From Phycisphaerae bacterium (GTDB lineage Bacteria > Planctomycetota > Phycisphaerae > Phycisphaerales > SM1A02), in the NCBI GenBank assembly GCA_016873275.1, contig VGXO01000002.1, positions 62,001 through 126,000 of the forward strand: a stretch of 64,000 bases of DNA. The letters are read 5' to 3'. Of the stretch, positions 61,376-64,000 are shown piece by piece. How positions within the stretch are numbered: the stretch's first letter is position 1; each line of letters starts with the position of its first letter. The notes under the pieces are model-generated. The model did not search any database, was not told the origin of the DNA, and saw nothing but the letters and a program-made list of their open reading frames with translations. The translations under genes and the position numbers were made by a program.

Positions 61376-62097
61376 CGCCGCGGCGTTCCCGCGGTGCCCT
61401 CCGCGCCCACCCGCCGGAGCGCGTCCCTCACCTCCCGCTCGAGGCGGTCCACCACCTGCTCGAGGGTCGTGCCGCCCGTGTCCACCACCACGGCGCCCGG
61501 CGGACGCACGAGGGGAGCCACCGCGCGGGCGCGGTCGTGCTCGTCGCGCTCGCGGATCGCCCGCCGCAGCGCCAGCTCGTCCACCCGCTCCCCCGCCTGC
61601 TCGAGCTGCAGGAGGCGACGGTGCGCCCGCTCCTCGACCGGCGCGTCGAGGAAGAACCGCACCAGCGCATCGGGGAAGACGACCGAACCCTGGTCCCGCC
61701 CCTCGCTCACGAGGCGCGGCATCGCCGACGCGATCCGCCGTTGCGACTCGACGAGGATCGCCCGCACCTCCGGTCGAGCCGCGACCGCCGAGGCGGCGGC
61801 GGACGCCTCCACCGATCGGATCGCCTCCTCGACCGGCTCGCCGTCGAGCAGGATCACCGGGGGATCCGCCCGCCAATCGAAGTCGATCCGGCTGCGGCGG
61901 ATCACCGCCGCGACCGCGGCGCCATCCGAGGGTTCGATCCCGGAACGCAGCGCGAGGAGCGCCGCCGCCCGGTACATCGCGCCGGTGTCGAGGACCTGCC
62001 AGCCAAGGCGTCGGGCGAGCTGCTGTGCGACGCTCGACTTCCCGCACCCCGCGGGACCGTCGATGGTCACCACGAGCCCGCCCGCCCCCGAGGTCAC
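61372..62097 (-). CDS. cmk: Cytidylate kinase
   Basis: 241-aa NMP kinase phosphorylating CMP and dCMP. P-loop GPAGCGKSS (14-22), the family segment LDTGAMYRAAALLALRSG, the SEGRDQGSVVFPDA motif and RDEHDRARAVAPL are diagnostic. GTG start overlapping the TIM-barrel gene stop by 4 nt. Confidence 0.94.
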   Translation of the reverse strand: MTSGAGGLVVTIDGPAGCGKSSVAQQLARRLGWQVLDTGAMYRAAALLALRSGIEPSDGAAVAAVIRRSRIDFDWRADPPVILLDGEPVEEAIRSVEASAAASAVAARPEVRAILVESQRRIASAMPRLVSEGRDQGSVVFPDALVRFFLDAPVEERAHRRLLQLEQAGERVDELALRRAIRERDEHDRARAVAPLVRPPGAVVVDTGGTTLEQVVDRLEREVRDALRRVGAEGTAGTPRR

Positions 62098-62906
62098 GCC
62101 TCCTCGTCCGCGTCAGGCACCGCGGCGAGGGAGCCTTCGAGGTGCTCGCGGGCGAGGCGGATGCGCTTCGCGGCATCCTTCGCCCGCGACGAGAGCGCCA
62201 GCGTGCTCGAGAAGTTCACGGCGCGGATCGCCGAGACGAACTCGCCGAGGCGCGTCCACGCCGAGTCGGCGATCCTCGCGCTCGTGCCGAACACCGCGTC
62301 GAGCTCCGCGAGGATCACCGTCGAGTAGGGCGCGAGCCGGCGGAGGGTCGCCTCCGCGTCCTTGGTGCGGGCGGCGTGGGCGAACCCGGGCATGCAGCCG
62401 ATCCGGAAGCCGCCGACCCGTCGGATGAGGTCGGTCATTGCCTCGACCTGCAGCAGGGCTCCGTCCTTCGCCGAGGGCGCGATGAGCAGGTTGAGCTCGT
62501 GCTTCTCGATCGACTGCAGACCCCGACGCACGGCGCCGGCAAGGGCGTCGAGGTCGGCGCCCGCCGCCGCACGGCAGGAGATGCCGAGCCCGCTGCACCC
62601 GAGGCGAGACGCGACCGTCGCGAGGCGCTGGAGGCGGTCCATCGCCAAGGGACCGACCTCCGGATCGGAGGAGGCGAGGTCGAGCTCGACGTCGTCGATC
62701 AAGGTCAGGCAGGGACAGGCGACCTTGTCCGCCGCGTCGCGAAGCCGGTCGAGGTCCCGCCCGGTCCGACCCGCGAGCAGGGACGCCCGCAGCGTCAGCC
62801 CCCGCAGCTGGAACTCCTCGATCGCGACCCGAGGAAGATCATGGAGTTCCGGACGGTTGCGACCCGCCGCGAGGCTCGCGAGGGACCCGACCTCCAGGGT
62901 CATCAT
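62094..62906 (-). CDS. TIM-barrel sugar-phosphate isomerase/epimerase-like protein
   Basis: 270-aa protein with the alternating strand/helix pattern of the AP endonuclease 2/xylose isomerase-like TIM barrel: CPCLTLIDDVELDL, LGCSGLGISC, HELNLLIAPSAKDG, FRIGCMPGFAHAART, YSTVILAELDAVFG. The metal ligands are only partly recognisable, so the call is by fold. Two tandem ATGs at 62906/62903 fit a start better than the upstream TTG. First gene of the cmk-plsC-CCA operon. Confidence 0.7.
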   Translation of the reverse strand: MMTLEVGSLASLAAGRNRPELHDLPRVAIEEFQLRGLTLRASLLAGRTGRDLDRLRDAADKVACPCLTLIDDVELDLASSDPEVGPLAMDRLQRLATVASRLGCSGLGISCRAAAGADLDALAGAVRRGLQSIEKHELNLLIAPSAKDGALLQVEAMTDLIRRVGGFRIGCMPGFAHAARTKDAEATLRRLAPYSTVILAELDAVFGTSARIADSAWTRLGEFVSAIRAVNFSSTLALSSRAKDAAKRIRLAREHLEGSLAAVPDADEEA

Positions 62907-63043
62907 GATCGGTGCCTGCAACCGCTGCTCCGTCGATGGGGTGGTGGCGGCGCCTCCGCCGTGCAGGTGGAGTCTAGTGGATCGACCCTCCTCCCCCGTC
63001 TCCTTCGACGCCGACCGATGCGGTCTCCGGCGGCGAACGCCAG

Positions 63044-63165
63044 TTGACTCGGAGCCTCGAACATCAAGGGGTCATGACCGGAGTGAAGATTTTCAGTGAG
63101 GGTCCTTGCGAATCTGGGAAAGACCGGTAACCTGCGGAGGTAGCTCTGCATCTTTCTCCCCTCCG
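63044..63165 (+). ncRNA. Candidate small RNA or leader ending in a strong terminator
   Basis: A TTGACT hexamer at 63044-63049 could be a -35, though no clear -10 follows. Downstream come GGTCATGACC (10-nt palindrome, 63070-63079), an 18-codon frame (63074-63130, MTGVKIFSEGPC...), a hairpin GCGGAG/CTCTGC with a GTAG loop (63134-63149), and the terminator at 63166. The 445-bp gap has no other plausible gene. This could be an sRNA, a leader peptide with attenuator for gcvH, or a lone microgene. Confidence 0.4.
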
Positions 63166-63201
63166 GAAAGCGCCCATCGTTCGCGATGGGCGCTTTCTCT
63201 T
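63166..63201 (+). terminator. Strong Rho-independent terminator
   Basis: Perfect 14-bp arms 63166-63179 and 63184-63197 (GAAAGCGCCCATCG) with a TTCG tetraloop, then TCTT. It lies about 150 bp before gcvH on the same strand, so a transcript ends (or is attenuated) here. Confidence 0.85.
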
Positions 63202-63230
63202 CGACCGCTGCCGGGGCTCCCTCGGGAAGA

Positions 63231-63290
63231 CCGGTCGGAGGCGATCGGAGCTGGTCGGAGCTGGTCGGAGCTGGTCGGAGCTGGTCGGAG
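63231..63290. repeat. 10-bp tandem repeat
   Basis: Four exact copies of CTGGTCGGAG (63251-63290), preceded by two degenerate ones (63231-63250), between the terminator and gcvH. The period of about one helical turn would put any bound protein on one DNA face. Confidence 0.85.
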
Positions 63291-63351
63291 TCTCGCTCGG
63301 ATCGATCCGCCCCTCCGTAAGATCCGCCCCTTCATTCCTTGGACACCTCCG

Positions 63352-63735
63352 ATGACAAGCCCCTCCGATCTCCGCTACTCCCAGACCCACGAGTGGTTCC
63401 GCGTCCAAGGCGACGTGGTCACGATGGGCATCACCCAGTTCGCGGCGGACCAGCTCACCGACGTGACCTACGCCGCGATGAAGCCTGCGGGCACGCAGGT
63501 CGCCGCGGGCGGCTCGATCGGGGAGGTCGAGTCGGTGAAGACGACCAGCGACGTCTACGCCGCCGTCGCCGGCGAGATCATCGAGGCGAACTCGGCGATC
63601 TCGGCGGATCCGTCGCTCGTGAACTCCGACCCCTACGGCGCCGGCTGGATGGTGCGGCTTCGTTGCAAGGACGCCTCCCCGCTCGCGAAGCTCATGGACG
63701 CGAAGGCGTACGACTCGAGCCTCGCGGGTGCCTGA
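63352..63735 (+). CDS. gcvH: Glycine cleavage system H protein
   Basis: 127-aa lipoyl carrier protein of the glycine cleavage complex. RYSQTHEWFRVQGD at the N-terminus, the lipoylated Lys63 in ESVKTTSDVY, and NSDPYGAGWMVRL near the end are canonical. It shuttles the aminomethyl group between the P, T and L proteins. gcvT, gcvP and lpd are not in the window. The next ORF, an ABC ATPase, overlaps its end by 8 nt. Confidence 0.95.
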   Translation: MTSPSDLRYSQTHEWFRVQGDVVTMGITQFAADQLTDVTYAAMKPAGTQVAAGGSIGEVESVKTTSDVYAAVAGEIIEANSAISADPSLVNSDPYGAGWMVRLRCKDASPLAKLMDAKAYDSSLAGA

Positions 63736-64000
63736 GCCCCACCGCGCTGCGGTCGCCACCAACGAGGGAGATCCGACGATCGCCCGCGGCGCCGCGGTCC
63801 GTCTGTCGGTGGAGGAACTCCGCAAGACCTACCGCACCGGCGACCGCGTCGTCGAGGCGATCCGCGGACTGGACCTCGCGATCACCGAGCCCGGCTTCTT
63901 CGCGGTGATGGGACCCTCCGGGAGCGGCAAGACGACGCTGCTGCATCTCCTCGCCGGACTCGACCGACCGGACGGCGGTCGGATCGAGGTCGGCGGCGAG
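63728..64000 (+). CDS. ABC transporter ATP-binding protein, LolD/MacB type (partial)
   Basis: The first 91 codons of an ATPase cut by the window end. RLSVEELRKTYRTGDR, AIRGLDLAITEPGFFAVMGP, Walker A GPSGSGKTT (62-70) and LLHLLAGLDRPDGGRIEVGG are typical of LolD/MacB-type ATPases that drive lipoprotein release or efflux. The GTG at 63728 is the first start and overlaps gcvH by 8 nt; no later start fits the family N-terminus better. Confidence 0.85.
   Translation, partial: MPEPHRAAVATNEGDPTIARGAAVRLSVEELRKTYRTGDRVVEAIRGLDLAITEPGFFAVMGPSGSGKTTLLHLLAGLDRPDGGRIEVGGE

Follow-up and report, generated by a model that had tools for sequence, protein, structure and literature searches.

What a perfect intrinsic terminator is doing upstream of gcvH, where the neighboring gene runs the other way, is the question raised by a stretch of about 160 bp in this Phycisphaerae genome. 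An earlier note on the sequence had offered two answers, a small RNA (sRNA) or an attenuated leader of gcvH. The window, as the whole 64,000-nt stretch analyzed here is called, corresponds to G000:C2:62001-126000, on contig 2 of a 3.2-Mb genome in 136 contigs; positions are those of the window unless a contig is given.

Anatomy of the locus upstream of gcvH

About 430 bp separate a xylose-isomerase-like TIM-barrel gene, encoded on the minus strand (62094-62906), from gcvH on the plus strand (63352-63735; Pfam GCV_H, 2.3e-39), and the element lies in this gap. The gcvH gene is a neighbor of the candidate sRNA and not a gene regulated by it as a leader. Because the upstream neighbor is encoded on the minus strand, no plus-strand gene terminates here, as the earlier note had remarked. 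The protein of the TIM-barrel neighbor gave no match of its own in a Pfam search; it is 41% identical (6e-57) to the neighbor protein at a locus in a relative (L057), which matches PF01261 at 2e-7.

The items that had been listed for the stretch 63044-63201 (TTGACT, a palindrome, an 18-codon frame, hairpins and a terminator with a TTCG loop) are all present in it, and three of them do not stand as parts of the element. TTGACT (63044-63049) and the palindrome GGTCATGACC (63070-63079) do not occur within 130 nt upstream of the motif in G001 and G002, the two congeners of the window genome, and the frame MTGVKIFSEGPCESGKDR*, which begins at 63074 and has its stop codon at 63128-63130, has no counterpart in either congener as judged by eye, so that all three look like chance occurrences; a small protein encoded by the frame was rejected on the same comparison. 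The hairpins and the terminator are real and conserved in relatives, the 5' hairpin with a sequence that varies. In the window, the 5' hairpin (TGCGGAG-GTAG-CTCTGCA, 63133-63150, plus strand), whose sequence is not conserved, is followed on the same strand by a C-rich, anti-Shine-Dalgarno-like linker, AUCUUUCUCCCCUCC (63150-63164), and by the intrinsic terminator (63166-63197), which consists of a perfect 14-bp stem with a TTCG loop and a T-rich tail reaching to about 63201. This succession of a hairpin of variable sequence, the C-rich linker and the terminator is the conserved anatomy. The linker, which is conserved, mostly unpaired and proposed here as the seed, is the key part of the element, one that had not been named before. 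The C-rich motif and the terminator form the 3' module of what is termed here a type A sRNA (63146-63201, plus strand), which is matched over its full length by the covariance model R1 with 69.2 bits and an E-value of 1.4e-17 (G000:C2:125146-125201), the window copy being one of the 30 sequences used to build that model. The 158-nt element folds at -65.4 kcal/mol against a shuffle mean of -53.4 kcal/mol (z -2.73), a value equaled by 2 of 200 shuffles.

Known RNA families do not account for the element. The 4227 models of Rfam 15 gave no match in the window at gathering score, and at 62900-63400, with E ≤10, they returned two minus-strand matches (E 7.5 and 9.5), both below their gathering scores. 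On a set of 15 loci no Rfam model matched the element, the sole match being to RNase P in L139. The glycine riboswitch model was without a match both in the window and at 62900-63400, in agreement with the earlier judgment that the element does not resemble this riboswitch, and in the absence of any Rfam match this and other Rfam families were ruled out. A tRNA and tmRNA search of the window found none.

Conservation and structure of the linker-terminator module

Searched as DNA against 101 relatives, the element produced matches with E <0.001 only for its 3' third (query positions 101-158); these lie near gcvH and, in many genomes, occupy the other strand. The exact 13-mer CTTTCTCCCCTCC of the linker occurs in 84 of the 101 relatives, in one to three copies each, versus 2 of 101 for its reversed control. 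Of 18 gcvH upstream regions inspected, 16 carry the linker, exact or slightly changed, together with a terminator hairpin; L074 is without the linker, and in L080 it lies outside the 520 nt inspected. The terminator near gcvH mostly has the form GAAARCG...CGYTTTCT in the window's family, and across the relatives a stem of 9 bp or more is found directly 3' of the linker in 83 of 91 distinct contexts, versus 12% of 2000 random positions. The same linker also occurs at a second place in relatives, immediately before another terminator (GCCCCGTTG...CAACGGGGTTTTT). The possibility that the second 16-18-nt site seen in most relatives is rRNA was refuted by two sites that were read, both of which show the linker-terminator module.

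At a wider phylogenetic level, a phylum sample of 392 genomes contained the exact 13-mer in 22 of 31 genomes of the order, 1 of 10 other members of the class and 63 of 351 others; the reversed control occurs in about 40 of these 351 (counted by eye), and there may be some excess of the 13-mer in the rest of the phylum. A contig scan across genomes yielded at least 80 loci, 58 of them labeled as Planctomycetota or a subgroup (counted by eye), with many of the 58 labeled Phycisphaerales, Phycisphaeraceae or Phycisphaerae. The remainder among the listed loci comprise one from an unlabeled bacterium and 21 from other phyla, the latter regarded as chance matches. The named matches point to the Phycisphaerales, and weak relatives occur in other parts of the class. 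When 298 genomes of the class were searched with R2, the covariance model of a second type described below, 48 genomes with a match at E ≤1e-6 were obtained among those listed (all but 230), 42 in the order and six outside it, and 20 listed genomes of the order were without a match. Five of the six genomes outside the order belong to one family, and because three of the six (L398-L400) carry similar linker-stem modules, in which TTTCTCCCCTCC or TTTCTTCCCTCC is followed by a stem of GCCCCGTAGG or ACCCCGTAGG, the sRNA family may extend outside the order.

The copies fall into two main paralogous types that have a common linker and different terminators: type A, to which the window copy belongs, is in most cases found before gcvH, and type B occupies other places and has another stem. 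The alignments A1, with 30 loci of type A, and A2, with 64 of type B, were both collected by means of the exact 13-mer, and the invariance of the linker within them is hence by construction; searches with R1 (type A) and R2 (type B) do not require the 13-mer, and the linkers that they recovered carry zero to several changes. R1 matches 86 of the 101 relatives at E ≤0.01, many of them via type B, and R2 matches 93, reaching at least 46 bits in 77 genomes (81 matches, counted by hand). Of the 34 R1 matches of at least 46 bits, 32 are located upstream of gcvH. With a threshold of 45 bits, 33 of 35 R1 matches fall in the window's family, and 28 of the 61 genomes of that family have none.

Further stems and linkers were also encountered. 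In family f4 a different stem, GCGCGTAGCCGG, adjoins gcvH (L140, G063), and matches near gcvH were also found in G067, G079 and G083; in G075 the GCGCGTAGCCGG stem (L147) is on a different contig than gcvH, as is a similar match in G071. A GGACGG stem adjoins gcvH in some f2 genomes. Linkers of further paralogues include CTCATTCTCCTCCTCC and CTTTTCTCCCTCC, and in variant paralogues the terminator is still preceded by a CUCC-rich string, for example UUCUCCUCCUCC. Two tandem type B copies about 184 nt apart were observed in G076:C111 (L377:187-426), where the linkers differ (CTTTCTCCCCTCC and CTTTTCTCCCTCC) and the terminators are nearly identical. Additional linker-terminator modules, which combine AUCUUUCUCCUCC with other stems, were observed in G098 (L389, L412), and a single genome may therefore carry several such sRNAs.

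The terminator stems of both types covary. In the 30-locus alignment of type A, 97.6% of the stem cells are paired, and double changes affect 5 pairs and 19 cells, against 2.1 and 3.2 in shuffles that ignore the relatedness among the sequences (none of 500 as high); the count of further pair types, a weaker measure, was as high in 36 of 500 shuffles. For type B, 98.2% of cells are paired, with 64 double-change cells against 16.9 in shuffles of the same kind (none of 500 as high) and, by a weaker measure, 6 pairs with a double change against 3.4 (8 of 500 as high). Shifting the stem partner by 1-3 columns lowers pairing to 36-57%. The linker has a mean unpaired probability over the 13-mer of 0.76 in 30 type A and 0.70 in 46 type B loci, with values above 0.6 in 24 of the 30 and 30 of the 46. 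For these and for the promoter and box counts given below, four non-planctomycete look-alikes and L171 were left out of 35 type A loci; loci fetched after L152, and L144, were left out of the type B unpaired count. Pairing with the terminator was ruled out as the reason for the conservation of the linker, since the same or nearly the same linker precedes several different stems. The 5' hairpins are unalignable; folded singly, many type A loci form one at that position whose sequence is unrelated, and the 50 nt that precede the linker have a mean fold z of -1.28 (type A) and -0.6 (type B).

Transcription signals and orientation

A promoter-like sequence, TTGCGA-N16-TAACCT, is found at 63106-63133 on the plus strand and constitutes the candidate promoter of the window copy. 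A similar element, TTGC(G/C)A-N16-TANNNT, is present in both congeners, in G001 about 180 nt upstream of the motif. The sequence in the window would place the RNA start near 63140, inside the 5' hairpin, which would thereby be cut, and a scan of 62500-63800 with the sigma-70 consensus returned no site; the candidate promoter in the window's genus is a weak consensus match and badly placed. Across the 30 type A loci, the pattern TTGN3-N15-18-TAN3T occurs at -105 to -30 of the linker in 25 (200 shuffles: mean 1.9, maximum 6), and a AARATRGGYAAAAT box, with at least 12 of 14 positions matching, is found upstream in 20, versus 0.05 in shuffles. Because both patterns were chosen after viewing these loci, the tests are not independent and serve more as descriptions. 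Over the 61 genomes of the window's family, AARATRGGYAAAAT has 17 matches in 13 genomes, eight of them at type A loci. The box was also observed shortly before NDH-2-like and YchF-like frames (L270, L278; names assigned by eye), possible members of the regulon that includes type A.

For type B, with L144, L170 and L199 left out, loci whose linker is preceded by G show a looser promoter pattern in 20 of 35 cases (shuffle mean 4.8, maximum 12), and those of an AT-ending class show the promoter pattern in 4 of 42 (mean 2.5, maximum 9). Promoter enrichment is thus low in the AT-ending class, which may include 3'-UTR products. Where they occur, four gene clusters precede type B and share its strand; they were labeled from one member each as glycosyltransferase-like (29 loci), ROK (23), amidase GatA-like (23) and thioesterase-like (18), with clusters that overlap at some loci and ORF lists that include spurious frames.

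The orientation of the copies relative to gcvH was assessed for 41 R1 matches, comprising all 34 with at least 46 bits and seven weaker ones chosen for their proximity to gcvH; the f4 genomes G071 and G075, in which the similar match is off the gcvH contig, were left out of these counts. In 39 of the 41 cases the match shares a contig with gcvH and lies 123-799 nt before the gcvH start, and 35 of these 39 occupy the opposite strand. The four on the same strand are those of the window genome, G001, G002 and G028. The attenuated gcvH leader proposed in the earlier note is hence rejected, since 35 of the 39 linked copies are transcribed away from gcvH; it had suggested itself because the window shows the rarer orientation. 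G060, a congener of G028, has the opposite orientation, and by parsimony, without a tree, orientation has therefore changed at least twice. The two remaining matches are those of G098 and G041; in G041, type A adjoins the TIM-barrel gene, and gcvH is on another contig, where the fetched part of its upstream region is without the linker.

The same counts bear on the broader possibility that the element is a cis-acting attenuator or leader of a neighboring gene, which would be either gcvH or, in the majority of relatives, the TIM-barrel gene. The four same-strand copies, at 123-210 nt before the gcvH start, fit a leader of gcvH, and the 35 others, which point mostly toward the TIM-barrel gene, fit a leader of the latter, as do L057, where the TIM-barrel frame starts about 120 nt past the linker on the same strand, and the arrangement in G041. 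Each candidate gene, however, is on the wrong strand for part of the copies (gcvH for the 35, the TIM-barrel gene for the window, G001, G002 and G028), orientation differs between the congeners G028 and G060, type B has the same linker beside other neighbors, and no riboswitch model matches. A cis-acting role is hence regarded as quite improbable, although less so for the TIM-barrel gene where the copy has the commoner orientation.

Proposed action at Shine-Dalgarno sequences

The other proposal of the earlier note, an sRNA, is favored by order-wide conservation, covarying terminator stems, the promoter-like sequences and boxes seen in relatives, and a second type that is an unlinked paralogue with a different terminator, all of which are read directly from the genome sequences. 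The reading preferred here is that 63106-63201 is probably a stand-alone sRNA gene of an Hfq-independent family whose linker would pair with Shine-Dalgarno sequences. This mode of action is suggested because known C-rich sRNAs act in this way and because no Hfq was found: a search for Hfq (PF17209) was negative in all 21 genomes tested, the window's own included, with the control positive in 5 of 14 reference genomes, and the element is thus not classed as an Hfq-dependent sRNA. We infer a transcript of about 60-100 nt, composed of a short variable 5' hairpin, the unpaired linker and the intrinsic terminator, in which the linker would be the working part. By pairing with the G-rich Shine-Dalgarno regions of several mRNAs, the linker would block ribosome loading, and so repress translation, without Hfq, and a putative regulator binding the AARATRGGYAAAAT box upstream of the promoter would switch type A.

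Potential targets were searched with the complement of the linker, GGAGGGGAGAAAGAU, which starts with a strong Shine-Dalgarno sequence. In 14 genomes, GGAGGGGAG-N1-9-ATG returned only the RNA's own antisense, a repeat restricted to the window genome and single unrelated matches. The shorter pattern GGAGGGGA-N3-9-ATG gave 74 sites in 8 genomes, or 63 after removal of 11 own-antisense sites, against 17 for the reversed control, an excess expected of any Shine-Dalgarno-like string. Reading of 69 distinct sites yielded 35 ORFs of at least 60 aa, some of them probably spurious, among which no homologous pair was found at 1e-5; this search for a conserved target covered the one seed register only. 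Nor does gcvH emerge as a regular target: pairing of the linker with the 5' region of the window's gcvH does not exceed that of shuffles (0.22), and among 12 gcvH regions three were at ≤0.05 against shuffles.

Other explanations of the conserved module have to be weighed against an sRNA that pairs through its linker. The C/U-rich stretch and the terminator could be the landing site of an RNA-binding protein, a chaperone or 3'-end stabilizer that replaces Hfq, on RNAs that act by other parts or are mRNA 3' ends. Such a site would suit the fixed position of the linker beside the terminator, a degree of conservation beyond the need of a variable target set, the four kinds of gene that precede type B in the same direction (29, 23, 23 and 18 loci), the one type B class with little promoter enrichment and the failure to find hfq in 21 genomes. 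In paralogues, however, the letters of the linker change and the ability to pair with Shine-Dalgarno sequences is kept (CUCCCCUCC, CUCCUCCUCC, CUCUCCUCC), and type A has a promoter-like sequence shortly upstream; the protein site is therefore considered unlikely. Two strings of the linker, CCUCC and CUUUCU, are also found at the 3' end of bacterial 16S rRNA, and a high-copy RNA of this kind might act as a decoy of the 16S rRNA tail that competes with the ribosome for every Shine-Dalgarno mRNA, in effect a global translation switch. The 63 versus 17 sites counted above would agree with a decoy, but they are expected for any Shine-Dalgarno-like string, and nothing indicates abundance, with one to three exact copies per genome having any, which makes such a decoy very improbable. 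A chance assembly of a terminator with unrelated motifs, or a degraded repeat, would explain the frame, the palindrome and TTGACT, which do look accidental; order-wide conservation and covariation refute it for the linker-terminator module, and its probability is close to nil.

If the linker does act on Shine-Dalgarno sequences, the family might have a wider meaning. In Phycisphaerales, where 21 genomes yielded no Hfq, an old anti-Shine-Dalgarno RNA family could form a core post-transcriptional layer, with a near-invariant linker on several unrelated terminators and promoters serving as a built-in switch over Shine-Dalgarno genes, perhaps only part of the genes; this view is speculative and the odds are against it. 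The locus provides an order-wide case in which to test whether bacteria with no detectable Hfq control translation by a fixed anti-Shine-Dalgarno linker placed on different terminators, and with the two covariance models and the promoter box any Phycisphaerales transcriptome can be checked at once.

Several known RNAs offer points of comparison. RepG of Helicobacter, a host not known to have Hfq, has a C/U-rich pairing region that is located in its terminator loop, unlike the linker described here. The cuckoo RNAs of Rhodobacter and other alphaproteobacteria have the motif CCUCCUCCC, which resembles UCUCCUCCUCC of paralogues found here. Unpaired C-rich stretches are described as acting at ribosome-binding sites for LhrC, sX13, RoxS and FsrA (PMC4132741, PMC3771888, PMC10433868). 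Listeria LhrC, in the account cited, has several homologous copies, binds a G-rich site that precedes a start codon and does not need Hfq for its effect on lapB; it carries three redundant UCCC sites, in contrast to the single 13-15-nt linker at the foot of the terminator found here (PMC4132741), and it comes from an unrelated phylum, the present family matching no Rfam family. RoxS/RsaE of Bacillus and Staphylococcus likewise binds G-rich Shine-Dalgarno sequences through single-stranded C-rich regions, but is reported with three such regions and with known metabolic targets, against one region here (PMC10433868). The C-rich motifs of Xanthomonas sX13, an intergenic RNA downstream of another gene, are described as acting on G-rich motifs near translation starts with Hfq dispensable, and are hairpin loops instead of a linker (PMC3771888). 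CcsR, according to its source, belongs to a cluster of homologous sRNAs and is linked to stress; it is transcribed together with a DUF1127 gene, and RNase E processes it (PMC10253847). RepG is comparable with the proposed sRNA in that it is reported to target a G-repeat in an mRNA leader (PMC8295292). One review puts the number of annotated sRNAs in the entire PVC group at 8 (PMC9029176), and a literature search for Phycisphaerales sRNAs had none among the best-ranked matches listed. The element would thus appear to represent a new sRNA family, absent from Rfam, of a known functional kind.

Two repeats were also recorded in the window genome. The 10-bp tandem repeat GGTCGGAGCT lies at 63233-63290, upstream of gcvH, and each of its units has a GGAG that could pair with CUCC of the linker. 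Another sequence, GGAGGGGAGGTCCGATG, which was absent among the matches in 13 relatives searched alongside the window genome, is repeated in the latter, exactly at 12 places and as a close variant at 3, among them C1:43, 331 and 620 and sites on C4, C7, C8, C18, C54, C57, C70, C91 and C114; on C1 it lies within a palindrome-rich tandem repeat (about 288 bp).
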